Positions 2,393 to 21,765 of a stretch of 21,880 nucleotides of DNA are shown in pieces. Within the stretch, counting starts at the first letter, position 1; every line of letters starts with the position of its first letter. Made by a program: the position numbers and the translations under genes. This stretch comes from a virus, in IMG/VR virus record IMGVR_UViG_3300042868_004679, positions 1 through 21,880 of that record; one strand, 5' to 3'. The notes under the pieces are model-generated. The model saw nothing but the letters and a program-made list of their open reading frames with translations, was not told the origin of the DNA and made no database searches.

Positions 2393-4174
2393 TTAAAATT
2401 TGATGTCATCTAACAGGTTATTTTCATCTAAAAGGTCTGATTTTTGTGATTTTTCACTTAAAATCCTCTTTTTTGCCGAAATCCCATTAATATATTCTTG
2501 TGCTAATTTTTTACTTGATTCAATTGAACGAGTTTCTCTCTTACGTTCTTTTTCGTTTTCTTTGTTTCCCAATGGGTCTCTGCCATATGGATGTTTATCT
2601 TTACCATATGTATTACCTTCTCTTGGTCTACCACCTTTATTATCCACAATCTCCTGCTTCATTTTTTCAATCTCCTCCTCCACATTTTGTGGTTCGGGTT
2701 GATTAGCAGGGTCTTGTCCTTGCTGTTCTATTGAATTATATCTAAATCTATCTTTAAGGTCTAGTATCATTTTAGCTCTCTCCATATCCATTTCATCCTC
2801 ACTCATGCTAAATACATTGTGATATACCCAATCAGTAGATAACATATTCATTCCTTTGATATCAGTTGCTAATCTAACTTTCTCACTCCATAAGTTTACC
2901 TTCTCTTGCTCATATATTGTAGATGAGTTAGTTAAAGTAAGTTGGAAGTTTGTCATTTCAGAATCATCAATACCCTGTCCAGCTAAGTGAACGATTGCAA
3001 TCTTATATAATTCACTAACAATTGTTCTTTGAATTCTTTCGATAGTTCTAGCAAAACGAACATCTTCTGCAGCCAATGTAGCTTTACCATTAACGTTCTC
3101 ATCATATGATAAGTAAGCCTTTGGAACTTTTAATGCAGCAAATAGTTTAGCTTTTAGATAATCAATATCTTCAACCGCTGCATAGTCTAATCCAGCTAAG
3201 TTTTCAATTGATGTACCACTATCTCCACCTCTAACAGGTAAGAAGAAATCTTCAGTAAGATTCTGAATATTGTATTTTAAGTTGTAGTCACCACTATTTT
3301 TATCAACAAATGGAGTTTTCTTCATTTTATTGATAATCTTTTGCATATAGTTATCAACCTCTTGCGGGTTAATGTTACCAATATCAATTTTGAACACTCT
3401 TTTTTCAGGTGCTCTCATAATACGATGGATTAACATCGCATCTTCCATAAGCGATAATTGTTTCCAAACCCTACGGCCGTTTTCAATCATAGCCTTACCA
3501 TATGGAAGGAAGTTTGTATCTGAAAGTAATCGGAAGTGAGCCATTTCATAGTTCTCATATTCCTTTTTACCAAATCTATCTAATTCAACTTTGTATTTAA
3601 CATAGTTTTGATTCAATGGGTCAGTACCTTCCAATCTTTCCGTATTATATACAGAATATGGAGTTACATTAATAATACCCTTACCTTCAGCTATTTCCAA
3701 TGCTAAAAAGAAATCACCATACTTTACCAAATTTCTTACCCAAGGCCACAAATTAAATTCTATGTTTATTACATCATAGAATAAGTTATGTAGGATTGCA
3801 CTTACATTTTCGTTTGATGATTTGATTGCCAATACATCACCAAATTCATTTTTTGTTGTTGATTCATCAGCGTATATATCTAATGCAGATGCTATAATTG
3901 GGTCATTATCCATAGCATCATAATCTCTGAATAATTCTCTACGAACTTGGTGGTATGCCATTGATTGGGCACCCTGATTAGTTTCGTAGTAAGACCTTTG
4001 TAACTTTGTATATCTATCTCTAAGATTTACGAAGTTTGTATTCATTTGACGTTCTTCGGTATCTACTACTCTACGCTTACCATCTTTATCAACAGTTACT
4101 ATTGCGTTTGTTGAGAATAGTTTTTTCAGTCTACCAAAAAAACTCCTGTCATCTATTTCTTCTTGTTCTGCCAT
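2393..4174 (-). CDS. Portal vertex protein, T4 gp20 type
   Basis: This 593-aa protein forms the dodecameric ring at the unique head vertex through which DNA is packaged and the tail is joined. Family features visible by eye are NDPIIASALDIYADEST (about 90-106), VKYGDFFLALE (150-160), the MAHFRLLSDTNFLPYGKAM segment (211-229), and the gp20-type core from MRAPEKRVFKIDIGN (253-267) through NLTEDFFLPVRGGDSGT (305-321) to EDIDYLKAKLFAALKVPKAY (335-354). The C-terminal 110 residues are charged and Gln/Lys-rich, with a GRPREGNTYGKDKHPYGRD stretch and an acidic LLDENNLLDDIKF end, and are probably flexible. The length is near that of T4 gp20 (524 aa) with a longer tail. It starts 7 bases after the 145-aa gene and probably shares its transcript from the box at 4647-4654. 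No sheath or tube gene separates it from the terminase. Confidence 0.95.
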   Translation of the reverse strand: MAEQEEIDDRSFFGRLKKLFSTNAIVTVDKDGKRRVVDTEERQMNTNFVNLRDRYTKLQRSYYETNQGAQSMAYHQVRRELFRDYDAMDNDPIIASALDIYADESTTKNEFGDVLAIKSSNENVSAILHNLFYDVINIEFNLWPWVRNLVKYGDFFLALEIAEGKGIINVTPYSVYNTERLEGTDPLNQNYVKYKVELDRFGKKEYENYEMAHFRLLSDTNFLPYGKAMIENGRRVWKQLSLMEDAMLIHRIMRAPEKRVFKIDIGNINPQEVDNYMQKIINKMKKTPFVDKNSGDYNLKYNIQNLTEDFFLPVRGGDSGTSIENLAGLDYAAVEDIDYLKAKLFAALKVPKAYLSYDENVNGKATLAAEDVRFARTIERIQRTIVSELYKIAIVHLAGQGIDDSEMTNFQLTLTNSSTIYEQEKVNLWSEKVRLATDIKGMNMLSTDWVYHNVFSMSEDEMDMERAKMILDLKDRFRYNSIEQQGQDPANQPEPQNVEEEIEKMKQEIVDNKGGRPREGNTYGKDKHPYGRDPLGNKENEKERKRETRSIESSKKLAQEYINGISAKKRILSEKSQKSDLLDENNLLDDIKF

Positions 4175-4671: not shown

Positions 4672-6267
4672 CTACAACCATTGAGATAAATCTTCAAATC
4701 CATCACCAATTCTCATCTTCCAAGGGTTATCATCCATAGTGCTACCACCACCATAAATACCATTATAAGTATTTGATGTAATACCACCTACCGCACTTTT
4801 TGTTAAATCAATACCTTCTTGTCTTAATCTAAGCGCAGTATCCCTAACCCACATACCAATTGAAAATGCCATTACCAAGTCATCGTTGTAACCCTTCATA
4901 GCTTCAGCTCTACCATTCATATAAATAAACGTAAATAACTCATCTATCAAACGAGTAGAACGAACTATAACTGATTTCTCTCTAAAGTAATCAGTTAATT
5001 TAGATATAATCAAAGGTCTAGTTTTAGATGTAGTTGAAAATCCGGCAACCAATCCTCTATCCTCAGCTCTATATTTATTTGTCATTTGATTCTCTACATC
5101 GATATATTTTAAATCCTTACTCATATAGAATAAGTTTTTATATCCTCTATCAATTACTTGCTGAATTGTTGCCCATCCAATATTTGCATTCTCTATTACA
5201 AGTAAAGCATCATTATATTCCGTTGAAAGTGCTACTAAGAAGTTTCCAAAATCTTTTGTATCAACTTTGCCTTTATATTCAGCTACTTGAGTTGAATTAA
5301 CTACATCAATTACATGACACGTTGAATAATCGGCTCCATCGCCTCTAGCCACATCGGCTACTACCATATATGATTTTTGATAATCAGCATGTTCCCATTT
5401 CCAAAGATTTCCATCAAATCCACCTTTCTCAATTGGTTCCTGAATATATGTTTCTTTATAGAACATTAAAGTTTCCGGTTCAATTACAGTTTCACCAGAA
5501 GATACGAAGTCACAATCACATTCCTGTGCTGCTTTCTTTATACCTAATAATTCCTCTTGCTGGTCTCTCCATTTTTGGTCTCTCTCAGGATGTACTGTCC
5601 AATGTAATCTGATTGTGTTGAATGGATTTCTACTTTCCTCAGCTCCTAACCAAGTTTGGTGAAACCAATTACCGACACCATTAGGAGTAGATAATGCAAT
5701 ACAACTACCACCCGTAGATAGAGTTGATTGAGCTGCTACCCAAATCTCGTCGATATCATCAATGAAAGCGGCCTCATCAAATATAAGAAGTGATAAGGCT
5801 TCCGAACGTCCTGCATCAGGAGAACTAGCAATAGCCTTAATTTGAGAACCATTTGTTAAACGAAGGGAAAGCTTATTATCTTCCATAGACCCGTTTTTAA
5901 GCCAACTAGGAAGCAATTCATGCATTACTCTTACCTTTGTTACCAAGTTCTTTGCAACATCTTGCTTTGTTGCAATAACTAATACGTTAAAATCACCATT
6001 AAATATCATTTTCCAAAGAGCGTATCCAGCCGATAGGGTTGAGATGCCAGTTTGTCGTGATTTCAATACTATATTAAATCTATTACCTGCAAATTGAGTT
6101 AGTGTCTTTTCCTGAAATGGAAATAAGTGGAAAGGTATCTTACCTCTAACTGGATGTTGAATCATACAATACTTCTTCATAAAGTGAATCGGGTCTACCG
6201 CACACTTTTTGTATTCTTCTGCAATAATATCTTTTAGAGATTTCTTTTGTGTTATACCAGTACTCAT
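4672..6267 (-). CDS. Terminase large subunit (gp17-type packaging ATPase/nuclease)
   Basis: This 531-aa packaging motor cuts concatemeric DNA and pumps it through the portal. The N-terminal ATPase has a deviant Walker A, KSRQTGIST (69-77), Walker B LLIFDEAAF (160-168, catalytic Glu165) and coupling motif ALSTPNG (191-197). The C-terminal RNase H-like nuclease shows three acidic positions: Asp305 in VVADVARGDGADYS, Glu359 in LLVIENANIGW, and Asp462/Asp463 in YNDDLVMAF. The protein is shorter than T4 gp17 (610 aa) but all core motifs are present, so it looks intact. The ATG follows the stop of the preceding zinc-ribbon gene by one base (TAATATG), implying co-translation. It probably belongs to the transcript that starts at the box at 6972-6986. 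Confidence 0.96.
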   Translation of the reverse strand: MSTGITQKKSLKDIIAEEYKKCAVDPIHFMKKYCMIQHPVRGKIPFHLFPFQEKTLTQFAGNRFNIVLKSRQTGISTLSAGYALWKMIFNGDFNVLVIATKQDVAKNLVTKVRVMHELLPSWLKNGSMEDNKLSLRLTNGSQIKAIASSPDAGRSEALSLLIFDEAAFIDDIDEIWVAAQSTLSTGGSCIALSTPNGVGNWFHQTWLGAEESRNPFNTIRLHWTVHPERDQKWRDQQEELLGIKKAAQECDCDFVSSGETVIEPETLMFYKETYIQEPIEKGGFDGNLWKWEHADYQKSYMVVADVARGDGADYSTCHVIDVVNSTQVAEYKGKVDTKDFGNFLVALSTEYNDALLVIENANIGWATIQQVIDRGYKNLFYMSKDLKYIDVENQMTNKYRAEDRGLVAGFSTTSKTRPLIISKLTDYFREKSVIVRSTRLIDELFTFIYMNGRAEAMKGYNDDLVMAFSIGMWVRDTALRLRQEGIDLTKSAVGGITSNTYNGIYGGGSTMDDNPWKMRIGDGFEDLSQWL

Positions 6268-7003: not shown

Positions 7004-9940
7004 TTATTTATCGAAGAAAATACCTAAAATTTGATTTAGGGGTGCGAATGCACCTGTTAATTTGTAAGTGTTACCACCATAGACAAATACAATACCCTCA
7101 TTTGGTACAATCTTTTCGAATCCACCAAGTGCATTTAAGCGAGATAACTCTAATTTCAATTTTTCAATCTTCTTAGGGTCACCACTTGCTTTTACTTGAG
7201 ATATTGTTGATTGTAAACGGGCCACCATTTGTCTTTTAGCACTATCAGGGTTTGCTGTAAGAACCGAATCCATAAAGGATAGTACATCCGCACCAACTCC
7301 TAAGAATATCTCCTCAAATCTCATTAGATTTTGCTTTCCTATCTTTTGTTGGTCTTGCTTATCAGTTGCATCGGCCCAAGCTCTTAATTTTTCATCAGTT
7401 ATTTCTGCTATACGGAAACTTTTATCGTTAAAAGCCCATCTTTTTACTAATCCTATCTTTTGTTGTGAATCTAATTTTTTTGCTTTCTTTTCTACAAAAT
7501 TAGTCCACCATGCTTGATGATAATCAGCAACACCATCAGAATCGTGCAATCCAAATTCAGATTGTAATTTAGAAATCATCCCTAAATACTTTCCTTGCAA
7601 TTTAGAAAGGTGTTCTGATTTAGGAAGTTTATTAATTGGCGGTCCCTGTATTGTGTATTTTGATTGAACGTGTGCATTTACTTGCTTAATCATCCCACCT
7701 AATATACTTGCAGCTTGTTGATTTTCACCAATAATTACACCATCTTTATCATATTCAAATGTACCATGAAATACCAATAGTGGTTGGTTATATGGAATTA
7801 CGTTTACGGATGTTGGATATATTACTTCCAAATTCATAAAACATGCACCATTTTTGAATATCTTTTTTCTTTGTGGTTCGGATAGGGCTCCAATTGCTTT
7901 TGATAAATCTTGCATAGCGAAGTTGTATGCATCAGTCAATCCACCTCTACCAGCAAACTTATCTGCCACCTGTCCTATTGTCATAGCACCCTCACCTTTG
8001 TTCTTTAGGTGTGATTTGTTACGAGCTGCAACTAATCTACCATTTACCCAACTAACTGCCAATGCCTGACCATCAGTCTTCTCTCTTGCTAATTCTAAAT
8101 CACCATTAAGTGCTCTTACTACTATTTGTTTTAAATCACCAAATGTAAGATTCATTTCAATATCAAACGGATGGTTCATATGTCCATAAGCCCCACCTTC
8201 CAATAGGATTGATTCATTAACACTTTCTTTTTTTGAAGATTCAAGTTGTTTTCTGATTTTATCTATTTCAGCTCTAACCTTCATTTGTGCCGGAGAGTTT
8301 GGCATCATCTTAAAAGCCTTATTATATAATACTACCAATTCCCTTTCTAAATCTTTCAATCCTTCGTTTGTTGGATTTTCTATATTAGCTAACTTATCAT
8401 AATAGTTTATATCTTCCCATAAATGGTCCATAGCGATTTCAGTTGCAATACGAACATCAGTTGTATGTTCCATTTCAACTTTAATACCTTTCATTAATTT
8501 AGGTTTGATATATTCTTTTGCAAATTGCGTTGGGTCATAATATCCGTTAGAATCATATTTCTTAGCCAAATCAATTATAGTTTTACCTTTTGCCAAGCCA
8601 CCAGGAATTTTATCTTCATCAATCTCCTCATACCCACTCATTGCTTTGTTGTTAAGTTTTTTACTATTCTTCTTAACATCTTTACTATCAGGTGCTCCAT
8701 TAATATATCCACCCGGCAAACTCAAACCTATACCAGCTCCACCACCAAGTCCCATCTCATCTAATATAGAATCAAAATCAGAAACTATTTCTTTGATATC
8801 TTCTTTTGAAATTATTGTATCTTTTTGATTATCAGGCAATTCCCAAAATCTTTTAGGTTTATTTATAGCTTTTTTAGGTTTTATTTCTTTCCAATCTTCA
8901 ACAGTATGTGGGTCATCAGCTGGATTTAATGTACTTTTTTCTACATTATTTATTTTGTAATATGATTTTCTAAATTGAGTTTCAGTATCTTTTGTTTTAC
9001 CAACTCCTCTCATATTATCCGCTTTGGGTTTATCTAATTGAGTATATCCACCCTGCTTATACCAATTTTCAGGCTTTTCTTTATTTAATATTCGTTTGTT
9101 TCTATCTGCAACAAATGAGGTATCCGGTTCAGCTGTTCCGCTGAATCCTGCGTTGGATGCTGCTTCTTTTAAATTTTCTTTTTTAGGAATTCTAAATGTT
9201 ACTGCTTTCTTACCATTGATTGTTGGCATTCCCCACTCATCTTCACCTATTGATTTAACAACTACTTTTTTATTTTTAAATTTACCCATTAACAAAGTAT
9301 CACCAACTTTTACGTTTAGTTTAATTTCTTCATTAATACATTCTTTTAATCCCTTTAATTTAAGAGTAATTAATTTGAATATTTGAGAATCAAATTTTGG
9401 ATATGCTTTTGTAAAGTTTTTCTTTCTTTCTTCCGAACTACCAGCACTTAACCAATAACGAACATCAGTACCACTTATAGGATTTGGTTGTGAAGGTGAA
9501 GCATATACATATCCTTTATCTAAATACCCCTGCTCTACTTTACCTTTATATGGAGTGAAATATTTACCACCTAATCGGTTTTGGTCCTTCTCACCAACTA
9601 CAACTACTAAACCAGTTGTATCCGAATCATACTTATTTAGTATTTCTTCAGGTGCATATGGATTTTTTACATTAACAATTTTAGATGATGGTATCCCAAA
9701 CATCTGCATCATTATTGCTTTCTTTTCCTTAAAATTAAATGGAGATTTCTTTGAATCGGTAACATTAGAAGTTCCGATATATACGCTATCCTTTCCGAAC
9801 TTGCGTACTAAATTTTCATAAGTTGCGTAATGGCCCTTATGAAATGGTTGAAAGCGGCCCGAATAGACAACAACTACTTTGTCCATTTGAGCCGCTTCTC
9901 CCAATATTGTTTCTATTAAAAAGTTTGATAATTCGTTCAT
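7004..9940 (-). CDS. Multidomain NMNAT-like nucleotidylyltransferase / DUF5661-like / ligase-type nucleotidyltransferase fusion
   Basis: This 978-aa protein has several distinct parts. Residues 20-195 form an HxGH nucleotidylyltransferase domain: GRFQPFHKGH (28-37), VGEKDQNR (115-122) and ISGTDVR (155-161), as in NMN adenylyltransferases and related enzymes. Residues 207-252 look like a small beta domain (VGDTLLMGKFKNKKVVVKSI). Residues 397-417 are Gly-rich (GLSLPGGYINGAP). Residues 436-518 match the DUF5661 pattern, IPGGLAKGKT, then GIKVEMEHTTD, then AMDHLWED. Residues 580-978 show covalent-nucleotidyltransferase motifs in order: I, EKTDG (Lys621 nucleophile), Ia, AARNKS (638-643), III-like, FMNLEVIYP (701-709), IV, EGIVF (948-952), V, YKLTG (959-963). 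DNA/RNA ligases and capping enzymes share these. The substrate is unknown; RNA or NAD metabolism are options. The N-terminus MNELSNFLIETILGEA resembles a T4 capsid-targeting peptide. No stop or frameshift interrupts it. Confidence 0.9.
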   Translation of the reverse strand: MNELSNFLIETILGEAAQMDKVVVVYSGRFQPFHKGHYATYENLVRKFGKDSVYIGTSNVTDSKKSPFNFKEKKAIMMQMFGIPSSKIVNVKNPYAPEEILNKYDSDTTGLVVVVGEKDQNRLGGKYFTPYKGKVEQGYLDKGYVYASPSQPNPISGTDVRYWLSAGSSEERKKNFTKAYPKFDSQIFKLITLKLKGLKECINEEIKLNVKVGDTLLMGKFKNKKVVVKSIGEDEWGMPTINGKKAVTFRIPKKENLKEAASNAGFSGTAEPDTSFVADRNKRILNKEKPENWYKQGGYTQLDKPKADNMRGVGKTKDTETQFRKSYYKINNVEKSTLNPADDPHTVEDWKEIKPKKAINKPKRFWELPDNQKDTIISKEDIKEIVSDFDSILDEMGLGGGAGIGLSLPGGYINGAPDSKDVKKNSKKLNNKAMSGYEEIDEDKIPGGLAKGKTIIDLAKKYDSNGYYDPTQFAKEYIKPKLMKGIKVEMEHTTDVRIATEIAMDHLWEDINYYDKLANIENPTNEGLKDLERELVVLYNKAFKMMPNSPAQMKVRAEIDKIRKQLESSKKESVNESILLEGGAYGHMNHPFDIEMNLTFGDLKQIVVRALNGDLELAREKTDGQALAVSWVNGRLVAARNKSHLKNKGEGAMTIGQVADKFAGRGGLTDAYNFAMQDLSKAIGALSEPQRKKIFKNGACFMNLEVIYPTSVNVIPYNQPLLVFHGTFEYDKDGVIIGENQQAASILGGMIKQVNAHVQSKYTIQGPPINKLPKSEHLSKLQGKYLGMISKLQSEFGLHDSDGVADYHQAWWTNFVEKKAKKLDSQQKIGLVKRWAFNDKSFRIAEITDEKLRAWADATDKQDQQKIGKQNLMRFEEIFLGVGADVLSFMDSVLTANPDSAKRQMVARLQSTISQVKASGDPKKIEKLKLELSRLNALGGFEKIVPNEGIVFVYGGNTYKLTGAFAPLNQILGIFFDK

Positions 9941-9971: not shown

Positions 9972-10355
9972 TTATTCTTTTACTACTTTATTACTAGCTG
10001 ATTGAGCTTGTTGTTCAGCCAATTGCTTTCTAGTTGGTGCACCTGGTTGATACTGAACCGTACCATCTTGTAAATTAAGTCTTCCAGCTGGATATTTATC
10101 ATCTAATACATCTAAAGTTTGCTTTAATTCAGCACTCGTATTTTTAAATTCAGCCTCCCCTTGCTCAAGTAAAGAATCCAATCTAACCAATTCATCTGCT
10201 ATTTCTTTTTTTCTAATATAAATTTGTCCAAACTCAAGTAATAATTGATTTGATTTATCATTTAATGAGTTTATTGTATCTAAAATAGATTCATCTACTT
10301 TAGCTATTTCAATCTCAATAGATTGCTTTTGTGGGATGTTATCTAATCCTGCCAT
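9972..10355 (-). CDS. Coiled-coil protein, longer paralogue of the 94-aa protein
   Basis: This 127-aa protein is mostly a charged coiled coil (about 20-85), followed by the motif KYPAGRLNLQDGTVQY (87-102) and a polar tail rich in Gln and Ala. Residues 24-104 align without gaps to residues 12-92 of the 94-aa protein at 13779-14063. By hand count about a quarter of positions are identical, including the shared YP-x-G-x-L-x-L-x2-G-x-V-x-Y signature. The two genes flank the glycosyltransferase pair and carry the same 15-mer upstream. The function is unknown. Small coiled-coil virion or chaperone proteins would fit, but nothing proves it. Confidence 0.85.
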   Translation of the reverse strand: MAGLDNIPQKQSIEIEIAKVDESILDTINSLNDKSNQLLLEFGQIYIRKKEIADELVRLDSLLEQGEAEFKNTSAELKQTLDVLDDKYPAGRLNLQDGTVQYQPGAPTRKQLAEQQAQSASNKVVKE

Positions 10356-10404: not shown

Positions 10405-11553
10405 TTATAAGAATTTTTCTAATTCTTTTATTACCATTTCCGATGTTATTGATTTAGTACACTCAAATTGTCGTTCCGTTCCTTTGTGGTCTGGGCACCA
10501 ACTCCAATCTCCAGCGTTTAAACGAATTCTATTAAAACATCCCTCACACTTTCCTTTAGGAGCTGCAACTCTATAACAGTCTTTCATTTCTGCCCAGTCA
10601 TACGAAAATCCACTAATTAAAACAGTAGGAACATCTAAAGACCAACTCAACCAACTCAAACCACTACCAATACCAATAAATGCTTTTGATTTTTTCATTT
10701 CAAGCATAACCAATTCAATAGGTCCTTTTGGATGATGTACGATTCCTTTTGGTAATTTATTTCCCATATAATCATCTCCCTCCTTTGATACTAATCTAAT
10801 TGTGTATCCTTTGTTATTCAACCAATCTACTACATCTTGCCAGCCAGTTGGATTATTCCAAAATTTAGATTGGGCAGTTCCAAACACACCAATACAAACT
10901 TGCTTTAAATTTGAATCAGGTTTTGTTTTTATATTTTTTAATTTTGGTTTTATTTCTTTATATTCCAATCCCAAAATATCAGAACACATTTTTTGCATTG
11001 TTTGAGTTTTTGGGTCAATTGGATTTTTAAATAAATTTATAGAACTATCATCATTATAAAATATACCAACAGAATACATTGCATATAAATTTTCAACAGC
11101 TGTACCAGGATTGACAAATTCAATTTCAGGATATTGACTCATAAACATATCATTCATAAATGTAGATACAATTAATTTACAATTATGCTTTTTTCTAAAT
11201 TCATCCATATATGGAAACCATGCTAAAGAATCGCCCAAAGCTTTTGAATCTAATGGAATATAAACTCTTTTATCTTTTGCATTATAAACATATTCATACC
11301 ATATTTTATCATTTTGATAAATAACAATTTTCCATTCTATAAAATATTCTATACTACATTTACACCAACAATTATTTTTTATATTTGTAGAGTAATGTAC
11401 CTTTCCAGTTTTATTATCTATAAATTTAACTGTATATTCAGAATCTATGTTTCCTTTAATTTCAACATAAGGTCCTTTAACAAAGTGAATTATCACTTTA
11501 TTTTTTACCTCAACTATATTATTTTTATTTTTCTTTAAATTATCGTATATCAT
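10405..11553 (-). CDS. TibC/AAH-type autotransporter O-heptosyltransferase (GT9-like) with Cys4 metal site
   Basis: I place the start at the ATG at 11553 (382 aa). A longer reading from 11562 would need a TTG, whereas this ATG overlaps the previous stop by one base (TAATG). Residues 20-95 form a beta-rich domain (VKGPYVEIKG, then VKFIDNKTGKVHYST). Next come YIPLDSKALGDSLAWFPY (98-115, Asp108 at the catalytic position of this family) and a GT-B C-terminal half with GIGSGLSWLSW (294-304). Near the end is C336-x2-C339-x13-C353-x11-C365 within KCEGCF, DWSWCPDHKG and QFECTKSIT. These match bacterial autotransporter heptosyltransferases such as TibC, which bind iron through four cysteines, form dodecamers and add heptose to Ser of beta-helical proteins. 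Acceptor and donor here are unknown. GC is very low in the N-terminal half (22 of 120 bases at 11281-11400). Confidence 0.88.
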   Translation of the reverse strand: MIYDNLKKNKNNIVEVKNKVIIHFVKGPYVEIKGNIDSEYTVKFIDNKTGKVHYSTNIKNNCWCKCSIEYFIEWKIVIYQNDKIWYEYVYNAKDKRVYIPLDSKALGDSLAWFPYMDEFRKKHNCKLIVSTFMNDMFMSQYPEIEFVNPGTAVENLYAMYSVGIFYNDDSSINLFKNPIDPKTQTMQKMCSDILGLEYKEIKPKLKNIKTKPDSNLKQVCIGVFGTAQSKFWNNPTGWQDVVDWLNNKGYTIRLVSKEGDDYMGNKLPKGIVHHPKGPIELVMLEMKKSKAFIGIGSGLSWLSWSLDVPTVLISGFSYDWAEMKDCYRVAAPKGKCEGCFNRIRLNAGDWSWCPDHKGTERQFECTKSITSEMVIKELEKFL

Positions 11554-13724
11554 TAACTCCAAGTTTTAATTGTTAAATCTAATAAAGAAAATCCCTCCGC
11601 TTGCTTACTATACACTTTGTTTGTTGTATATCTAGGTCTTGGGTGATTTATAAATACATGATTATACCAAAGGTCACCAACATCCCAACCACAATCTTTA
11701 AGTCTATCTTCCCACCACTGCTTTTCTCTATTTGGAATTAAATAACAATGTGCAAGGTCTTGATTTGCTGCTGTCTTTGAAAACAACTCATCTATCTTTT
11801 CTTTTTCTCTTGATGGGTTATCTGCAAATGATATGAATGGTACATTATCTCTCTCTGATAAGAAACATGCTCTATGTACTATTTCAACAAATTCTTCCAA
11901 ACCAGTATAGATAAATGCATCTGCTTCAAATACTAAAGTGTAATCAAAGTTTTCAGTATCCATTGTTTCCAATGCCATTCTATGTGCTAAATAACATCCA
12001 TAATGTCTACCAGTCATCCAACCCAAACCAGCACCAGGGTATAACTCACCCGGCTTATTATCTTTACTTATATGCTCAGGCCTTCTACAATTTTCAGCTG
12101 GTGCGAATCCTTCGTATGGTTCATTTACAATTGGTTCGTAATACATACCATATTTTTCTAATTGTTTAATAGATTGAATAGATACCCTTTCTCTCATATC
12201 ATTCGGCCTAGTCAACATATGTTTTATTTGAATACGAGGTTTCTTACGAATAAATGAACGAAATCCTTTATCAAACTGCTCATAGAAAAATTCATTTGCA
12301 GCTTGTGTTACTCCGTGAAATACTGTATAATCATCTCCACTAATAATTCCACCTGGCTTTACTTTGTTGTACCAAACTTTTACATCTTCCATTAAAGAAT
12401 CGTAAGAATGCCCAGCATCTAACATAATAAAATCTATACTACCATTTTGAAATTGATTAGCTGCATTATGTGAAGTATCTTTAATTGTATCAAATGTACC
12501 ATAGTTATCTGATAGAACTGTATTATCTATGAATTCATAAAATATATCTCCATTAAATGCTCCAACAATATTTTGGTGTAATGCCTCATCATCAGTTCCT
12601 TTCCACGTATCTACGCTTGTAAATTTAATATCCTTGCCAGACTGTTTAATTTTTGTTGCTAAATGATTTGTTGATTTACCAAACCATGCTCCTACTTCTA
12701 CAAATATCTCACCACCTTTAGCGGATTCAACCATTTCATTATATAAATCAGTATATGCAAACCAACCCGGTATTTCATTAAATTCAGGTTCTAATGTTTC
12801 TAATATAACTCTCTTAGTTAATTTCAAATCATCATTAATATAAGTTACTAATGAATTATTATCGTATGTATCTAAGTAAGTGTGTAACTTTCTAAATATA
12901 GAAGGTAATTTATATGATAGAGCTTCTTTAACTGATAATGGATTTAATTCTATTTTAGATGAAAAATAAAACATATCACATGCAGCATAAAATGTATCTA
13001 CATCGGTACGCTCTCCCCAGACTACACAATTTTCAGGTTTATAATCCATTAAAGGTCTCCAATAATCTTCAAAGTTTCCGGCCTGATTTCCTACGAAGTG
13101 AAATTTAATTTTATATTTTTCTAATTGTCTTGCTATTGCAAATATTTCTCCTTGATTTTTACCAGGTGCAAATAAACCAACATTAAGTACGTGCTTCCAA
13201 TTTGGGTCTAATCCTAATTCTTTTTGAGCAGCTTCGTTATCAAAGATATAATCTTCAATTGGATACTCCCATAAGTCGGTTTCAACTTCAGTTTCAATGA
13301 ATCTTTTTCTACTCCATTCGGATACTAAAACATATCTATCCGGATGATAAACTATTTCGGATGGATTTGTTAGTGAACCATGTGTAGATGCTACAATAAA
13401 ATAATTTCTATCTTTTGTAAAAATCTGGTCTAATATAAATGGTGCTAAATCAAATTGAGGTATTTCCTGAAAATGTATGATATCAGGGTTAAACTGATTT
13501 ATTACATTTAGTATTTCAGATTTATCATCTCCTAACGTATGAACCTCTACTAAAGATTTTATTCTATTTTTTTGAACTACAAATGCAATTCCACCACTAT
13601 TGTTTATTTCAACAACTTGAATATCAAAATCTTTAATAAAATGTTTTACCTGTTTATATAGGTATTGTGGTTGCCCTCCCGTAGATAAGTGGGGAGCAAT
13701 ATAAAGTAACTTCTTTTTAGACAT
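11553..13724 (-). CDS. Three-domain glycosyltransferase (GT4) / methyltransferase / GT25-like glycosyltransferase
   Basis: This 723-aa protein has three parts. Residues 1-310 are a GT-B fold glycosyltransferase of GT4 type: LLYIAPHLSTGGQPQYLY (6-23), LNVGLFAPGKNQGE (180-193) and the donor-binding SSKIELNPLSVKEAL (255-269), in place of the common E-G-F-G-x4-E-A. Residues 320-480 are a class I SAM methyltransferase-like domain: IFVEVGAWFGKST (340-352, motif I), SVDTWKG (370-376), DFIMLDAGHSYDS (431-443) and VKPGGIISGDDY (455-466). Residues 500-723 resemble GT25 LPS glycosyltransferases, with GRHYGCYLAHRMALE (572-586) and DYTLVFEADAFI (594-605), where EAD replaces the usual EDD. It probably makes or modifies a glycan with the heptosyltransferase translated right behind it. 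It is the only gene here that follows a Bacteroidota-type promoter. The acceptor is not known. Confidence 0.88.
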   Translation of the reverse strand: MSKKKLLYIAPHLSTGGQPQYLYKQVKHFIKDFDIQVVEINNSGGIAFVVQKNRIKSLVEVHTLGDDKSEILNVINQFNPDIIHFQEIPQFDLAPFILDQIFTKDRNYFIVASTHGSLTNPSEIVYHPDRYVLVSEWSRKRFIETEVETDLWEYPIEDYIFDNEAAQKELGLDPNWKHVLNVGLFAPGKNQGEIFAIARQLEKYKIKFHFVGNQAGNFEDYWRPLMDYKPENCVVWGERTDVDTFYAACDMFYFSSKIELNPLSVKEALSYKLPSIFRKLHTYLDTYDNNSLVTYINDDLKLTKRVILETLEPEFNEIPGWFAYTDLYNEMVESAKGGEIFVEVGAWFGKSTNHLATKIKQSGKDIKFTSVDTWKGTDDEALHQNIVGAFNGDIFYEFIDNTVLSDNYGTFDTIKDTSHNAANQFQNGSIDFIMLDAGHSYDSLMEDVKVWYNKVKPGGIISGDDYTVFHGVTQAANEFFYEQFDKGFRSFIRKKPRIQIKHMLTRPNDMRERVSIQSIKQLEKYGMYYEPIVNEPYEGFAPAENCRRPEHISKDNKPGELYPGAGLGWMTGRHYGCYLAHRMALETMDTENFDYTLVFEADAFIYTGLEEFVEIVHRACFLSERDNVPFISFADNPSREKEKIDELFSKTAANQDLAHCYLIPNREKQWWEDRLKDCGWDVGDLWYNHVFINHPRPRYTTNKVYSKQAEGFSLLDLTIKTWS

Positions 13725-13778: not shown

Positions 13779-14063
13779 TTATTCTGCAGATTCGTATATT
13801 ACTATACCTTCATTTAAATCAAGTTCGCCCATAGGATATTGCTTCTCCAAATCTCTAATTGTGGTTGTGAATTTACTATCATTTAGTTCAAACTCCATTT
13901 CCATAGATTTTTGTTCTTCCATAAGCTTGGTAATCTCAGTTTTAAAATTTCTTAATTTTAAATGAGTTTGACCAATACCAATAACTAATTCGTTTGCTTT
14001 AGTTTGCATACCTCTTAGGTCATCTATTAACTCTTGTGATAATTTTTCTGTTTTTTGTGCCAT
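13779..14063 (-). CDS. Small coiled-coil protein, paralogue of the 127-aa protein
   Basis: This 94-aa protein is helical and charged through about residue 74, then ends with QYPMGELDLNEGIVIY (75-90). It aligns without gaps to the 127-aa protein at 9972-10355 (see that entry) but lacks its N-terminal dozen residues and the polar C-terminal tail. It is preceded by the 15-mer promoter candidate and followed by the glycosyltransferase pair under a separate host-type promoter. The function is unknown. A membrane segment or catalytic motif is not apparent. Confidence 0.85.
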   Translation of the reverse strand: MAQKTEKLSQELIDDLRGMQTKANELVIGIGQTHLKLRNFKTEITKLMEEQKSMEMEFELNDSKFTTTIRDLEKQYPMGELDLNEGIVIYESAE

Positions 14064-14709: not shown

Positions 14710-17700
14710 TTACATAACTACCATTATAGATAATTCATCCATATTGTTTAAAGTATCTACGTTATTATCCTGTGTTCTGAAGTTTGTGAATGTATTATCT
14801 CCGGAGAATTTACCAGTATCAAATGTACATTCAACAGGTGCACTTCCACCATCACTTATTCTAGTACCGTATACAAATATAGATGGTGTATATCCAAAAG
14901 TTCCACCAGCTGAATTTGTTAATGCATAACTCACAGTATAACTACCTTGAGCTACTGCTGTCAATGATGTAATACAACCACCAACAGATGCAACATTTGG
15001 TGTGGCTGGGGCACCGGTGGCATTATTGGCCATCGTCCACCTGCCATACCCTTTAATCATAGGATATCCAGGCACATCATGTCCCAAATTAGTTCCAAGA
15101 TTACTTTTATGATATTGTTTGTCGGTAAGTATTCCACCTTCAACATATGTGTATATTCCTGTTGTATCAGGAGTTGTAGCGTGTCTTAAATATTTACCAG
15201 CACCAGCTGCGGTTTGGAAACCACCACCATTAACAATAGTACCTGCTGATACAGCTTCAACACTCAATCTATTAGAAGCACCTGCTTCCGCAAAAACAAC
15301 ACTAGCATCAGAACTTTCATAATATGGGGCATTGGATGTATCGGAGGATTCCACTGTATATGAAACAAGTAATTTCACTTTATAATAAGTGTTCGCTGTC
15401 AAATTTGAAGAAACAGTAAATATTTTTGGGTCAGTTAAAGTTGATGTTTGGCTTGTTGCATAATAAGTAGTGTAACCACCACCATAAAACGAAGTACCAT
15501 ATATATCAGCTTCGCTAAGCATCGACCCGTATGCATATGCTGAAGTTGATGTACCATATGCTACTATATCATTTGTTCCATCTGGTGTTATTACCAATGA
15601 AACTCCGATATTTGCATATGCAACACCGGCCGCAGAAGCTCTACCAGAAGTATATGCACTAGTTGGATTCCATACATACGTTACATTGTGCTGTCCTCCA
15701 TTAGCAGATGCTCTGAATCTACCCAATTCGTGATATATTCCAGTATAAAAGAAAGTATTATCGCCATTTAAACTAATTTCATCAACAACAGTTGCTGCTG
15801 TTGGAGTTATTAATAATGGTGTAGTCGTTCCTCCACTTGCGTTTGGACTACCATCATCTGCCTGAACACCTGCAGGGTTTGGTAATACTAATTCCGTATT
15901 TGCCGTAAATCTTACTGCATTATTTACATCTTTTACTTGAATTGATTCTTGTGCAGCATCTAATCTAATTCTACTATTTGCTGTAATATAAAACGCTTGT
16001 GCATTTAATGTCCATGCACCAAATGTTGCTTCCGATGAATTAAGTATTCCTTTAAAGAAAGCTGTACCATCAGCTTTTAAAGCAAATCCAGGAGTTGTTA
16101 TAGTACCATTTGCTAAGCTGATAAACGTACCAACATTAGAATATGGGAAAGCTTCAACTGATGCCGAGTAATTTGTTGAGGTTATTAAATTAGTTGCAAC
16201 CATATTAGTTACAATTGCACCTGCTCCTATATAAGTTATTGGACTTCCAGCTTCAATTGAACTAATAGCTGCCATTGCTCCCAATGAACTACTAAATGTA
16301 TTAAGTGCAGTTGTTGCGTTTGAACCAGCCGTACTGATTGCTGTGGATTGTGCAGCATTTGCTTTGGCTTGTGCACCACTTGTTGTTTCAGCATCACCAC
16401 CAGTTACTGTAATAGAACCTTTAATTTCTAAATCAGTACCCGTCCATCTCATAAACCTACTATTATCTCCATTAACTAAAGAAAATCTAGGTTTGAATGT
16501 ACTTGCAGTTCCACCATCATCATATATACCCATCCAAATTCCACTACTACCATATCCGATTGTACTATATTGTCCAATTGCCATATACGGGTCTTCTCTA
16601 CCACCAGCCAATACAATGTTTGCAAATGCACTACCACTATTGTTACCAACGTTGATTGTATTTTTTACAAATGATTCATCAAATATTGCAATCTTAGCTG
16701 CCACAAAGAATTCTTGTTGACCTAAAAATTGCCACCATGCATTATCAGCTCCAGCCGTTGGGGCCCTTGAACCAACCAAAGTACCTGATTTATTATATGT
16801 TTGTGGTCCACTACCACTTATAGCTGCGTAATATGTTGTTGGGTTAGTTCCATATATTACGGCATCTCTACGAAAATTTCTAGTCTCAACCGAACCACTA
16901 TAATTTGTTAAACTACTCCATTCACCTCTCATTACAATACCAGGCCCAGTAGAACCTTCAAATTGTACAGATAATGATTGTGTTTTATAAAGAGTTTGTC
17001 TTCCTTCACATTCTACTTGATAAACAATTTCACCATTTGGATTTGTGTTAGGGTCTGTCCATCCAACTATATTTGGCATTTGAGCAGGAACTCCAGTAAC
17101 ATAACTTGCAGGTAACCAACTATTTGCTAATGTTATATGAGATGATTTTGAATATATGGAAACTCTACATTGATTTTGATATCCAGTTACTCCATATGCA
17201 TCTCTTTGTGGTGAAGTAAATCCAGCAGGTTTATTTGTTAATTCAATTCCACCTCTATAAACTCTAATATCAGTACCAGTATTTGTTAATGTGAATTGCC
17301 CAGATACTTTATAAACTGCTGATGAGTTTTCATTTGTTAAATTTACTACATATGGTGCAGGCGGTTCAAATTGTACAGATATTGATTGTGTTACAAATTG
17401 AACTTGTCTATTATTTTCAAAATCAATTTTATATACAATCTGCCCACTTTTATTTACTGCAGGTGCGTACCATGCAGCTATATCATCAATTGAAGCAGGA
17501 TTGCTTGTTGGAAATTTATTAGATGATTGTGTAACAAACGAAGATGTAAAAAATATTGATGCCGATGAGAATCCTAAATTACCAATATAGTTTCCTAAGA
17601 AATCATAAACATCATTTGCTGCATTATATGTTGGCGTATTTACATTTGATAATTGTTCCGTACCTTTAAATGTAGTTATCTTCATACCACTACCACTAAA

Positions 17701-20700
17701 TGAAGTATTCCACAAATCAGCCGTAATTGTTGTACTTTCATTTGATGCTACTAATTTATATGCATCAGCCCCAGCTTTAATACCAGCAATTGTTAAAGAG
17801 TTTTCTGCTCTAATTGGTGCCGTTGGAGATGAATTACCATCTCTAATTCGTACAGTCCAAGTTGCATTTTCGCCCGGCCCAGTTGCATCACCACCACCTA
17901 TTTCAGCAGTTGCGTATTTTGAACCAGCAGAATCTTCACCAACAATACCAGTGTAATCAGTATCATCTTTATAAAATTGAAACCAAACTGCTCCGGTTGT
18001 ATTTGTTGCAGTTGCCGTTAATATAATTGGGTCTAATGGTGAAGATACAACTCCATCTTTATTAAAGTTTACAGTATCAAAAGATGCTTTCAAATTAACA
18101 CTTCTAGCATTTGGTGGAGCTACATTCTTTGTAAATGTTTGAGTTCTTTGAATTACAGAAGATGTATATTCGTGACCAGGTCCTAAAGCGTATGGATATA
18201 CAACAATGTTATATTGTGCACTAGCCGATACAAATGGATAATCAAATCTTTGAAATGATACAGTTGCCGTATTAAATGATGAACTTGCTATTGAACCAGT
18301 TCTAATATTTGATGTTACCACAGAAGCTCCATTTTGTATTCTAAATGTACCTGGAGCAGTTGATTGTGTTGTAAATCTTAAAAAGTCATCGCCATCTTTT
18401 ACCTGTATTGTTGTATTAGCTGCCGTGTAATCTGAAATATATCCAACCTCATCTGCTTTTAAATTTGGTGCATTTGGAGTTATAACTACTTGAATTGGTG
18501 GAGCTCCTTCTAATATTTTTGTATAATTAACAACAACACTTGCAGTATAAATTGATGAAGTAAAATATGGGTGTATTATTAATGGATATGTAATACTTCC
18601 ACTTAATTGTCTTAAATCGGAAGATGCACTTACTATTAATGAAGATGTATATGCAGCTCCGTTTGATGATGTAAATTGTACGTTACCGGCTTTAAGATTA
18701 CTTTCAATAATAGATGCGGTTGCTATATAAAATTGTCCATGTGATGAAAACTTATTATCACCAGCACTACCAGTAAAAGAAAGATATCTAGAACCTTGCT
18801 TTAATCTAATATCGGTAATTGATGGTTTATAATCACCAACAATACCTCTTGAATTTGCACCCAATGTAATTGATGAAGGAACTACTTCAAATATAATTGT
18901 TTCATCGCCAGGAGCACCATCAGGCGTAATTGTAAAAGATTGGTCTACCGATACCGATGCCGAAGTCCAAGGTTCAGTATAAGTAAAACTAACCAATAAT
19001 TGTTTACTTTGAGATAATGGTGAACTTAATGGATATGCCGATGCGTTTACTCTAGATGGGATTATATTTCCATTCTCATCATATGCAGCAACAGTTATAT
19101 CTTCAGCACAACTAAATGTTGTATAGTGCATCCAATATTCAGGAACCCAATCTTTATTAATTGACATTGATGGATATACTTCAAATGAACAACTTATAGG
19201 TGCTTCAAATGTACCCCTACGATAAAAAGATGCGGTTGCTGATGAATACGTTGGTCTAAAATTATTTTCTATTCTTGGATTAATTGAAAATTGATTTGTA
19301 TCAAATAATACAAGTCCAGTATCCAAACCATCTTGAATATCCGTTAATGTTAATGTAGTTAATATAGAGCCAGACAAGTTAGATGACCCAGTTGGAATCA
19401 TATAAAGAGTCAACTGACCATTTATTGAATCTCTATTGAATATTGCATTATAGTTTACTTCACCAGAACCAGTTATACCGGGCTTAATTCCTCTAATAAA
19501 TTGAGATGCACTCGCATCTGCCAAAGTTAAATAAGTAGAACCCGATTGTACGTGCAACATAGTATTTGAACGTCCTTTTGGTAAACCACTTTGTAATAAA
19601 ATTTCATTTACACCATCAATACGAATAGCTTGAACTTCTAATGAAGATGATGGATGTGAATTTCTAATTATAGTTCCATCATACGGTCTAATCTCATAAT
19701 TAACACCACCCTTACCATCTATTACTCTAGTGATAACCATTGAATCCTCAACACCCTCACACTCAACAGTATATTCAATAAATTGTACTACCAATTCTTC
19801 TAAAGCTTCATCTCTTGAACCTGTAAAGTTTTGTACCGTTAAAATAACATTATTGTTAGACCCGTTATTATCAATTAGATATCCCGGAAATTGCCCTCCC
19901 AAATAACCAGGCGTTATAATAGGTGCATACATTGATGATGATAACTCCGTGCCAAAGAAATCAAATGAACGTGACGTAAATGTATAAGAACCAGTTAAAT
20001 AATTTTTCTTAATATCAACATTAATAACAGTTGGCGGAACTGGATTACCATTACCAGAACCAGAATCAAATTGAAAATATAAAGATGATGGAATTAATTC
20101 AATACTTTTATTAATTACATTTAAGTTACCACCATCAAATGTTTTCGTTTCACTAACAACTACGGGAATATAGTTATTGTTTATATCATAAAATTGAAAT
20201 AAAAACTCAAAAGTTTCTCTTGGTAATGTTCTTGGTACAGGTTGTATAAACGTAATCTCATCGGGAGAAAAAGAACTTTCTTGCGATGCCCTTAAGCTAA
20301 CATCAGAAATATACCAACCATTTCCCTTTACATCAAAATACAATCTTGTATCAGATAATCCCTCTGCTTTAAAATTAATTGTTTTTGGTGTTTTTTGTAA
20401 TAAAGAATTATCAGAATATATTTTTATAATTTCTTGAGATGCTCCTACTTTTGTTGTAGTACCACCATATGTAATTTGTTTAGAACCGCTTATATAAACT
20501 GAAATGTAATTTGTTGGATTTAAATTTTCTAATAATCTAGTATTAAAATTTAATGTATATTCCGCATTTTCTGTTATTGCTATTGACTTGGTTGTAAAAT
20601 AATTATAAGGTCCTCCATTAGCATCCAATTTTACAGAATTGAATAAAAAGTTTTGATTAAATAAAGTTGATAAATTATTAGAAGATGTTACCCAATAATT

Positions 20701-21765
20701 TTTAAAATTGGAATTATCAAATAATCCATAGAATTCTTGATTCTTTGTTGTTGATTCTAAATCAACTAATAATTCATTTGATTCTAATTGTATTTCTTGA
20801 ATGAATTGAAAATCTGCTAAGTCTGATTGTGATTTTCTAAATACTTTTACTCTAGCAACATCACCAACAAATGTATTTAAATCACCAATAGTTATTTTTG
20901 CAAAAGAACCCGTTAATGCTGTTTTTAAATTATCAACACCTTCCGTATAATTAAAAGATGCAGTATATCCCTGTCCTATAAAATCAGTAACAATTCCATT
21001 TACAGTATATGGTGTTGATATTGTTAAATTTCTATCATTTACTAAATTATCGGCTTGTAAACTAACTCCCAAATCGGTAAATTGAATATCAGTACCAATA
21101 ACAGAACCAGTCCAAAATGTATCATCTGTAGTTGTTAGTAAATATGATGTTGGTAGTGTATAATTAGTTAAAGTTTCTCCTTCTCTTGGAGATTGTGCAG
21201 TTCCATCTGCAATACCTTTTTGAATTTTTTGAATTACAATATTATTAAATATCGGCTTTACTATCTCATTTATAGTTACTTGAGGTCTACGATAGAATCT
21301 AACTTTATCTTCGTTACTTAATAATCTATTAATTTGAAATGTTCTTTCCCATTTTAAATTATAAATTCCCTTCCATTCATCCGGCACATCTTGTGTATTA
21401 CCATTCGCATCTATATATGTCTTTGCTTCACCTAATATAGTTACCTTACCCAATCCAATTGGTGTATCTTCATAAACATAAACAGCAACTACTTTAGATA
21501 GTCCCTCATAATATTCAGGAATACCATTACCAGGTTCCCAATATACTGGATTTCCTTCTACATCCAATATCTCAACTTTAAGTTCAGTAGATTCTTTTAA
21601 ATACTGAGAACCTTCTATAAGAAATCCATTCTTACCACCAGTAAATGTATCTTTGAATTCAGTTATTCTAAAATAATCCGAATTTGGATTTGTGTCATTT
21701 AAAAATGTTCCGTAATTAGTAAGCGGAGTTGTTAAATTTTCTGCGTATTTTTTTATTACTGCCAT
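14710..21765 (-). CDS. Giant modular tail/fibre (host-recognition) protein
   Basis: This 2351-aa reading frame is uninterrupted and Ser/Thr/Asn-rich, with no signal peptide. Approximate regions: 1-350, N-terminal beta domains of a type seen in tail proteins (ITEFKDTFTGGKNGFLIEG); 355-510, a jelly-roll or CBM-like segment ending GNGWYISDVSLRAS; 510-850, beta-rich, with a VECEGVEDSMVITRVIDGKG stretch; 857-1600, a string of Ig-like modules of about 130-150 residues, several opening with a GAPGDE, GAPPIQ or GADAYK-type linker after ITP or IAG; 1630-1790, a domain with EWSSLTNYSGS; 1790-1840, an Ala/Ser-rich helix (GAQAKANAAQS) followed by ITYIGAGAIVTNMVATNLI and FGAWTLN, typical of central-fibre or J-like tips; 1900-2351, a Gly/Tyr/Ser-rich C-terminal receptor-facing part. 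No clear intramolecular chaperone domain is visible. It is the first gene of the minus unit, preceded by a promoter box at 21787-21794. It is probably the receptor-binding or baseplate-tip protein and a plausible acceptor for the nearby glycosyltransferases. Confidence 0.9.
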   Translation of the reverse strand: MAVIKKYAENLTTPLTNYGTFLNDTNPNSDYFRITEFKDTFTGGKNGFLIEGSQYLKESTELKVEILDVEGNPVYWEPGNGIPEYYEGLSKVVAVYVYEDTPIGLGKVTILGEAKTYIDANGNTQDVPDEWKGIYNLKWERTFQINRLLSNEDKVRFYRRPQVTINEIVKPIFNNIVIQKIQKGIADGTAQSPREGETLTNYTLPTSYLLTTTDDTFWTGSVIGTDIQFTDLGVSLQADNLVNDRNLTISTPYTVNGIVTDFIGQGYTASFNYTEGVDNLKTALTGSFAKITIGDLNTFVGDVARVKVFRKSQSDLADFQFIQEIQLESNELLVDLESTTKNQEFYGLFDNSNFKNYWVTSSNNLSTLFNQNFLFNSVKLDANGGPYNYFTTKSIAITENAEYTLNFNTRLLENLNPTNYISVYISGSKQITYGGTTTKVGASQEIIKIYSDNSLLQKTPKTINFKAEGLSDTRLYFDVKGNGWYISDVSLRASQESSFSPDEITFIQPVPRTLPRETFEFLFQFYDINNNYIPVVVSETKTFDGGNLNVINKSIELIPSSLYFQFDSGSGNGNPVPPTVINVDIKKNYLTGSYTFTSRSFDFFGTELSSSMYAPIITPGYLGGQFPGYLIDNNGSNNNVILTVQNFTGSRDEALEELVVQFIEYTVECEGVEDSMVITRVIDGKGGVNYEIRPYDGTIIRNSHPSSSLEVQAIRIDGVNEILLQSGLPKGRSNTMLHVQSGSTYLTLADASASQFIRGIKPGITGSGEVNYNAIFNRDSINGQLTLYMIPTGSSNLSGSILTTLTLTDIQDGLDTGLVLFDTNQFSINPRIENNFRPTYSSATASFYRRGTFEAPISCSFEVYPSMSINKDWVPEYWMHYTTFSCAEDITVAAYDENGNIIPSRVNASAYPLSSPLSQSKQLLVSFTYTEPWTSASVSVDQSFTITPDGAPGDETIIFEVVPSSITLGANSRGIVGDYKPSITDIRLKQGSRYLSFTGSAGDNKFSSHGQFYIATASIIESNLKAGNVQFTSSNGAAYTSSLIVSASSDLRQLSGSITYPLIIHPYFTSSIYTASVVVNYTKILEGAPPIQVVITPNAPNLKADEVGYISDYTAANTTIQVKDGDDFLRFTTQSTAPGTFRIQNGASVVTSNIRTGSIASSSFNTATVSFQRFDYPFVSASAQYNIVVYPYALGPGHEYTSSVIQRTQTFTKNVAPPNARSVNLKASFDTVNFNKDGVVSSPLDPIILTATATNTTGAVWFQFYKDDTDYTGIVGEDSAGSKYATAEIGGGDATGPGENATWTVRIRDGNSSPTAPIRAENSLTIAGIKAGADAYKLVASNESTTITADLWNTSFSGSGMKITTFKGTEQLSNVNTPTYNAANDVYDFLGNYIGNLGFSSASIFFTSSFVTQSSNKFPTSNPASIDDIAAWYAPAVNKSGQIVYKIDFENNRQVQFVTQSISVQFEPPAPYVVNLTNENSSAVYKVSGQFTLTNTGTDIRVYRGGIELTNKPAGFTSPQRDAYGVTGYQNQCRVSIYSKSSHITLANSWLPASYVTGVPAQMPNIVGWTDPNTNPNGEIVYQVECEGRQTLYKTQSLSVQFEGSTGPGIVMRGEWSSLTNYSGSVETRNFRRDAVIYGTNPTTYYAAISGSGPQTYNKSGTLVGSRAPTAGADNAWWQFLGQQEFFVAAKIAIFDESFVKNTINVGNNSGSAFANIVLAGGREDPYMAIGQYSTIGYGSSGIWMGIYDDGGTASTFKPRFSLVNGDNSRFMRWTGTDLEIKGSITVTGGDAETTSGAQAKANAAQSTAISTAGSNATTALNTFSSSLGAMAAISSIEAGSPITYIGAGAIVTNMVATNLITSTNYSASVEAFPYSNVGTFISLANGTITTPGFALKADGTAFFKGILNSSEATFGAWTLNAQAFYITANSRIRLDAAQESIQVKDVNNAVRFTANTELVLPNPAGVQADDGSPNASGGTTTPLLITPTAATVVDEISLNGDNTFFYTGIYHELGRFRASANGGQHNVTYVWNPTSAYTSGRASAAGVAYANIGVSLVITPDGTNDIVAYGTSTSAYAYGSMLSEADIYGTSFYGGGYTTYYATSQTSTLTDPKIFTVSSNLTANTYYKVKLLVSYTVESSDTSNAPYYESSDASVVFAEAGASNRLSVEAVSAGTIVNGGGFQTAAGAGKYLRHATTPDTTGIYTYVEGGILTDKQYHKSNLGTNLGHDVPGYPMIKGYGRWTMANNATGAPATPNVASVGGCITSLTAVAQGSYTVSYALTNSAGGTFGYTPSIFVYGTRISDGGSAPVECTFDTGKFSGDNTFTNFRTQDNNVDTLNNMDELSIMVVM
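16957..16984. repeat. 28-base direct repeat, copy 1 (inside giant tail gene)
   Basis: Matches 17365-17392 at 27 of 28 bases. The offset is 408 bases, exactly 136 codons, and both copies encode T-Q-S-[IL]-S-V-Q-F-E on the minus strand. This marks the junction between consecutive Ig-like modules and suggests fairly recent duplication or strong constraint. Confidence 0.8.
17365..17392. repeat. 28-base direct repeat, copy 2 (inside giant tail gene)
   Basis: Partner of 16957-16984, differing at one base. It encodes the same module-end peptide one repeat unit (136 residues) earlier in the protein. Confidence 0.8.

Follow-up and report, generated by a model that had tools for sequence, protein, structure and literature searches.

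The virus record IMGVR_UViG_3300042868_004679, analysed here as one stretch of 21,880 bases (the window), is a fragment of a T4-like freshwater phage, and its minus strand carries a gene that we firmly assign to the TibC/Aah family of O-glycosyltransferases. We suggest, with a probability of about one half, that this gene belongs to a late-module glycosylation cassette of the phage, in which the TibC-like enzyme heptosylates the collagen-like shafts of the phage's own tail fibres and a partner protein, p723, extends and caps the glycan. Sequence, model and comparison together establish the family, the fold, the catalytic and metal residues, the phage origin, the pairing with p723 and the association with collagen-repeat genes. 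The two genes of the proposed cassette are:

10405..11553, minus strand: predicted TibC/Aah-family O-glycosyltransferase of 382 amino acids (TIGR04414, TibC in the PDB, model, residue mapping), with an N-terminal beta domain, a GT-B catalytic domain (Asp108, Thr226, Lys230, Trp301) and a four-Cys iron finger (Cys336/339/353/365)
11553..13724, minus strand: p723, with a GT4 domain (about 1-317), a methyltransferase domain (about 337-480) and a GT25-like C-terminal domain (about 490-723) (Pfam, model, relatives)

The open reading frame of the enzyme runs from an ATG at 11553 to a stop at 10405; this start codon shares bases with the stop codon of p723, which lies upstream (TTAATG), and a GGAG lies just before it. 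Over nearly its full length the protein matches the NCBIfam profile TIGR04414 (autotransporter O-heptosyltransferase Aah/TibC) with 281.8 bits (cutoff 200, E 7.7e-84), and its only sequence relatives in the PDB are two TibC entries (E 4.5e-53). An original prediction, made from the DNA letters, had described an N-terminal beta domain, a set of motifs and an intact four-cysteine site, and these are indeed found: strands lie within residues 19-101 of the AlphaFold model (mean predicted local distance difference test score 92.8), ALGDSLAW occupies residues 105-112, DWSWCPDH 349-356 and QFECTKSIT 362-370, and the cysteines are spaced C336-x2-C339-x13-C353-x11-C365. The comparison with TibC that it proposed gives TibC 4rap as the top Foldseek match of the model (E 9.1e-35, template modelling score (TM) 0.86).

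In TibC, Asp110 is the base, Thr226 and Lys230 contact the phosphate, Arg286 the adenine and Trp305 the heptose O4, Cys339, Cys342, Cys358 and Cys370 bind iron, and Phe265 and Val266 form the tip of the thumb (PMC4358343). Mapped onto the window enzyme, the base is D108, the phosphate contacts T226 and K230 and the tryptophan W301, and C336, C339, C353 and C365 align with the four iron ligands. Asp108 and the four cysteines are invariant in all 152 aligned homologues. From the TibC match and the residue alignment, the cysteines would be expected to cluster and Asp108 to face the donor site. In the beta-hairpin thumb, whose hydrophobic tip serves dodecamer assembly in the TibC family, Tyr262-Met263 replaces Phe-Val at the tip, so that a hydrophobic pair is kept, as is Phe363, and the loop is about three residues shorter.

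Because genes of this kind tend to occur together with collagen-like repeat proteins, and such proteins are tail fibres in phages, the enzyme probably modifies the fibres of its own phage. The repeat was searched for as Gly-Ser/Thr-Ser/Thr, in a widened form that allows AGY codons for Ser in second position. In bacterial genomes a (Gly-Thr/Ser-Ser/Thr/Ala)n repeat gene is found close to the enzyme gene, in most cases less than 1 kb from it, as seen in Methylobacter, Methylomicrobium and other Methylococcaceae, a Polaromonas bin, several gammaproteobacteria and a Schekmanbacteria bin. Several of these genes show an apparent signal or lipoprotein start, and those tested also match Pfam Collagen. 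Twelve whole bacterial genomes were selected for carrying the enzyme, with no regard to the repeat; in ten of them every repeat match lies within 6 kb of the enzyme gene, and in the remaining two a looser repeat gene stands 41 bp from it. The chance of this association is about 2e-21 if the genomes are taken as independent, although they form only a few clades.

The association extends to phages. The enzyme is encoded on 14 of 22 viral contigs of at least 58 kb that were chosen solely for the repeat, whereas 17 control T4-like contigs of at least 45 kb chosen by terminase have neither the enzyme nor the repeat (0/17 for each; Fisher p 2.5e-5 for the enzyme, without correction for kinship). The repeat is also absent from seven phage records without a close enzyme relative, T4 included. 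The phage repeat proteins tested match Pfam Collagen, end in Peptidase_S74 and fall among the tail fibres of PHROG. Contigs of the window type of 274, 168, 136 and 126 kb carry many repeats, located in giant fibres where they were read, and a repeat lies within 10 kb of the enzyme in only 3 of 110 window-type loci, so the fibre genes of these phages lie elsewhere in the genome. The isolate Microcystis phage Mel-JY01 combines the enzyme domain with collagen-like repeat proteins; its repeats, plain in the protein, escape even the wider pattern, as units of GTG, GTD and CGG-coded Arg interrupt them. In the open-access literature we found no paper containing these repeat strings, nor any on Mel-JY01.

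The original prediction had the phage taking over its enzyme from an autotransporter system, a descent that is left unsupported, since collagen-repeat genes stand beside the nearest chromosomal relatives and TibC of E. coli is distant. In a quick tree the window protein falls in a phage clade adjoining a Methylococcaceae clade, and TibC sits on a very long, distant branch of unsure placement. For the branch of the window enzyme there is no need to regard the autotransporter role as ancestral, and the window itself holds phage structural genes and no autotransporter gene.

That the gene belongs to a tailed phage, as predicted, is borne out by the terminase and portal genes of the window and by conserved synteny. 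The features concerned are:

2393..4174, minus strand: portal protein (phrog_213, E 1.2e-59)
4672..6267, minus strand: terminase large subunit, TerL (PHROG terminase match)
9972..10355, minus strand: p127, a small, conserved gene that immediately follows the enzyme gene in the window (synteny)

TerL is nearest to those of Flavobacterium phage immuto (57.6%) and Mel-JY01 (55%), which places the window among T4-like freshwater phages; the host is perhaps a member of the Bacteroidota or a cyanobacterium. Nearly all close relatives keep the gene order p2351, small genes, p723, enzyme, p127, p978, p227, TerL and portal. In a scan of viral contigs with confirmation of the matches, relatives of the enzyme were encoded on at least 584 contigs.

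The model of p723 matches mostly GT4 enzymes such as BshA in Foldseek, as well as the MeT1 methyltransferase. Human collagen galactosyltransferase COLGALT1 appears at rank 43, a model-based match that is suggestive only, and the C-terminus has weak GT25 similarity in 28 of 48 members. In modular relatives the parts of p723 occur separately or fused to the TibC domain: the huge phage LR756501 joins GT4 with the TibC domain, Mel-JY01 has one protein of 1226 amino acids in which GT4 and TibC occupy opposite ends, and in locus L118 a lone GT4 gene precedes the enzyme. As GT4, methyltransferase and TibC domains have been fused repeatedly in unrelated phages, we take their joining to support one pathway. 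The Mel-JY01 protein (L002 4750-8430), with its N-terminal GT4 and C-terminal TibC-like domain, is annotated as 'methyltransferase FkbM'.

In the following scheme the sugar and the acceptor, like the sequence of steps and the effect on the fibre, are what we infer. Late in infection, the TibC-like enzyme with its four-Cys iron finger would prime Ser/Thr residues of the collagen-like Gly-X-Y shafts with heptose, most likely taken from adenosine diphosphate (ADP)-heptose. The translationally coupled p723 would then extend the glycan and methylate or cap it, by means of its GT4, methyltransferase and GT25-like domains. By analogy with glycosylated collagens, the fibre glycan could stiffen or protect the fibre, stabilise the triple helix or alter adsorption.

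Genes of the heptose-nucleotide type are found beside the enzyme gene in many relatives, between it and p127. An HldC-like nucleotidyltransferase of about 129 amino acids directly follows the enzyme gene in 56 of 130 phage loci, and an HldA-like PfkB kinase of about 250 amino acids is present in 47 (45 of the 56 HldC-like loci and two more). For both proteins the heptose families TIGR02199 and TIGR02198 give the best scores, 90-122 bits, below the equivalog cutoffs. The HldC-like proteins that were read have FSTT/FSTS-type ends, and most of them lack the Arg of (F/L)xxGRSTT, a motif that has been linked to nucleoside triphosphate promiscuity (PMC11573728). In three loci (L072 11149-11538, L033 11146-12265 and L137 11149-12283) the HldC-like and HldA-like genes that immediately follow the enzyme gene amount to a split version of HldE. 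Two further observations concern such genes: the record of a 636-kb phage (LR756504.1, locus L084) has an SIS_2 (GmhA-like) gene at 430122-430517, about 27 kb from its TibC-like gene, and G006, the contig of locus L119, has three NDP (nucleoside diphosphate)-sugar epimerase-like genes at 61790-71851 that score below the heptose-epimerase cutoff.

Several points weigh against the proposal that the enzyme heptosylates collagen-like fibres. The window and its closest relatives have no HldC-like/HldA-like pair after the enzyme gene, so the window phage would depend on a donor from the host or on genes elsewhere. A GmhA-type isomerase (PF13580) was found in 1 of 16 records and a GmhB-type phosphatase (TIGR01656) in 0 of 19, and heptose epimerase gave below-cutoff matches only; the phage heptose pathway is therefore at best partial. 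The repeat scan found no repeat fibre within the 21.9-kb window, and several enzyme-bearing contigs, most of them fragments, have no repeat by pattern. The control contigs come from two T4-like lineages, and the contrast with them is not corrected for kinship. Finally, Arg286, reported to be highly conserved and required for activity in TibC (PMC4358343), is Val282 in the window enzyme.

This last change bears on the identity of the sugar. Val occupies the Arg286 position in 80 of the 80 closest homologues and in 39 of 50 further viral ones, and Pro300, a stereoselectivity residue, is Gly. Only 5 of 19 genome-contig homologues with an otherwise good fit to the family retain the arginine, so that it does not define the branch, yet it bears on the donor, whose identity is less certain than the family. 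The loss of the adenine-contacting arginine and the Pro300 change are what one might expect of a protein O-glycosyltransferase that acts on a phage structural protein with a non-heptose or differently activated sugar. We regard such an enzyme as unlikely, though worth keeping in mind, for the equivalents of Lys230, Thr226 and Trp305 are retained, and the genes that adjoin the enzyme in many relatives score best to heptose families.

The original prediction proposed as acceptor either a host surface protein or the largest protein of the window:

14710..21765, minus strand: p2351, a large tail-fibre-like protein of 2351 amino acids (conservation profile, repeat scan)

A role for p2351 as acceptor is possible, but the best support has gone to collagen-like repeat fibres instead. 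If the enzyme glycosylated p2351, the collagen association would be secondary. The protein lies near the enzyme in window-type synteny, is rich in Ser and Thr (20.8%) and has a hypervariable C-terminus of about 550 amino acids, typical of a fibre tip such as that of a receptor-binding fibre; its homologue in locus L056 has a GTSGTT-type linker. It has no Pfam, PHROG or PDB match, and neither a collagen-like repeat, by scan of the window copy, nor an autotransporter-like motif was found in it. Enzyme-bearing phages of other layouts have collagen-like fibres without p2351, and enzyme-bearing bacteria have a collagen-like neighbour, and we accordingly hold it to be unlikely, though possible, that p2351 is the acceptor.

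Phages are known to carry glycosyltransferases that modify the host surface, and an enzyme that modified a protein or glycan of the host surface in the course of infection could, for instance, block superinfection. This we consider quite improbable here, given that the gene, coupled to p723, is part of the structural module and has tail genes on one side and packaging genes on the other, and that in unrelated phages it lies near tail sheath and fibre genes. A plain GT9 lipopolysaccharide (LPS) heptosyltransferase carried as a passenger gene, to which only a below-cutoff Pfam GT9 match (E 0.0008) points, is rejected, because both the profile scores (281.8 bits for TIGR04414 vs 25.3 for LPS heptosyltransferase I, whose cutoff of 185.3 is not reached) and the fold comparison (Foldseek E 9e-35 for TibC vs 7e-8 for WaaC, with plain GT9 enzymes far lower in the ranking at about 1e-8) favour TibC, as predicted, and the beta domain and iron-finger regions match TibC.

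With the TibC/AAH enzymes (bacterial autotransporter heptosyltransferases, BAHT; PDB 4rap and 4rb4), the window enzyme shares the domain order and the fold, the catalytic Asp, the Thr and Lys phosphate contacts, the Trp and the four iron-finger Cys. It differs from TibC, with which it has about 29% identity, in the replacement of Arg286 and Pro300, the shorter thumb loop, the phage tail-module setting and a probable acceptor that is a collagen-like repeat rather than an autotransporter passenger. Phage carriage of Aah/TibC is not new, as BFVD already holds A0A6J5SVC1 ('Glycosyltransferase Aah/TibC' of an uncultured Caudovirales phage, UniProt/BFVD), a member of the same family with 49% identity that differs in being a fused protein of 924 amino acids. 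To our knowledge, no acceptor, donor or pathway is known for it, and in the open-access literature we found no paper joining BAHT enzymes to phage genomes. What sets the window enzyme apart is its setting, its active-site change and its probable acceptor. Virus-encoded heptose-nucleotide enzymes have been reported, and a 2024 commentary calls their viral role unsolved (PMC11573728); the HldC-like and HldA-like genes that adjoin the enzyme in many relatives resemble these systems, from which our case differs in that the pair is absent from the window and the relatives' proteins score below the TIGR02199 and TIGR02198 cutoffs. A likeness to collagen glycosyltransferases (COLGALT1, GT25) is seen in the Gly-X-Y class of acceptor and the weak GT25 similarity of the p723 C-terminus. 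Bacterial collagen-like proteins such as BclA are glycosylated. From the COLGALT1 and BclA systems the proposed cassette differs in its TibC-type priming enzyme, its Ser/Thr repeats without hydroxylysine and an acceptor suggested by association.

On a wider reading, which we hold tentatively and at somewhat less than even odds, TibC-type enzymes of this phage and bacterial branch would be dedicated to Ser/Thr-rich collagen-like repeats, and the glycosylation of autotransporters would represent a single branch within a broader family. Many phages would then carry a part-pathway of HldA-like kinase, HldC-like nucleotidyltransferase, TibC-like priming enzyme and GT4/methyltransferase/GT25 extension that builds glycosylated collagen tail fibres. 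If true, our proposal would give virus-encoded heptose-nucleotide genes a concrete role and a widespread TibC-like enzyme branch a likely class of acceptor. Among freshwater T4-like and huge phages, tail fibres of this glycosylated, collagen-like kind would be common though unstudied, with a bearing on host recognition and on the stabilisation of collagen-like shafts without hydroxyproline. The reading is directly testable, as the isolate Mel-JY01 has both components and several methanotroph genomes have both genes adjacent.

Some further observations were made on the surroundings of the cassette. It is flanked by p127 and p94 (13779-14063, also minus strand), small coiled-coil-like proteins that cross-match in relatives and may be paralogues. 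The N-terminus of p978 (7004-9940, minus strand) is similar to nicotinamide mononucleotide (NMN)-adenylyltransferases (GRFQPFHKGH), a downstream KTDGQ motif resembles a nucleotidyltransferase/ligase motif, and the homologue in immuto is annotated as NadR-type. In five genome bins (L087, L090, L096, L102 and L103), one of them named Nitrosotalea, tail genes adjoin the enzyme gene and the contigs look phage-derived; the organism names of these bins are therefore probably binning artefacts.
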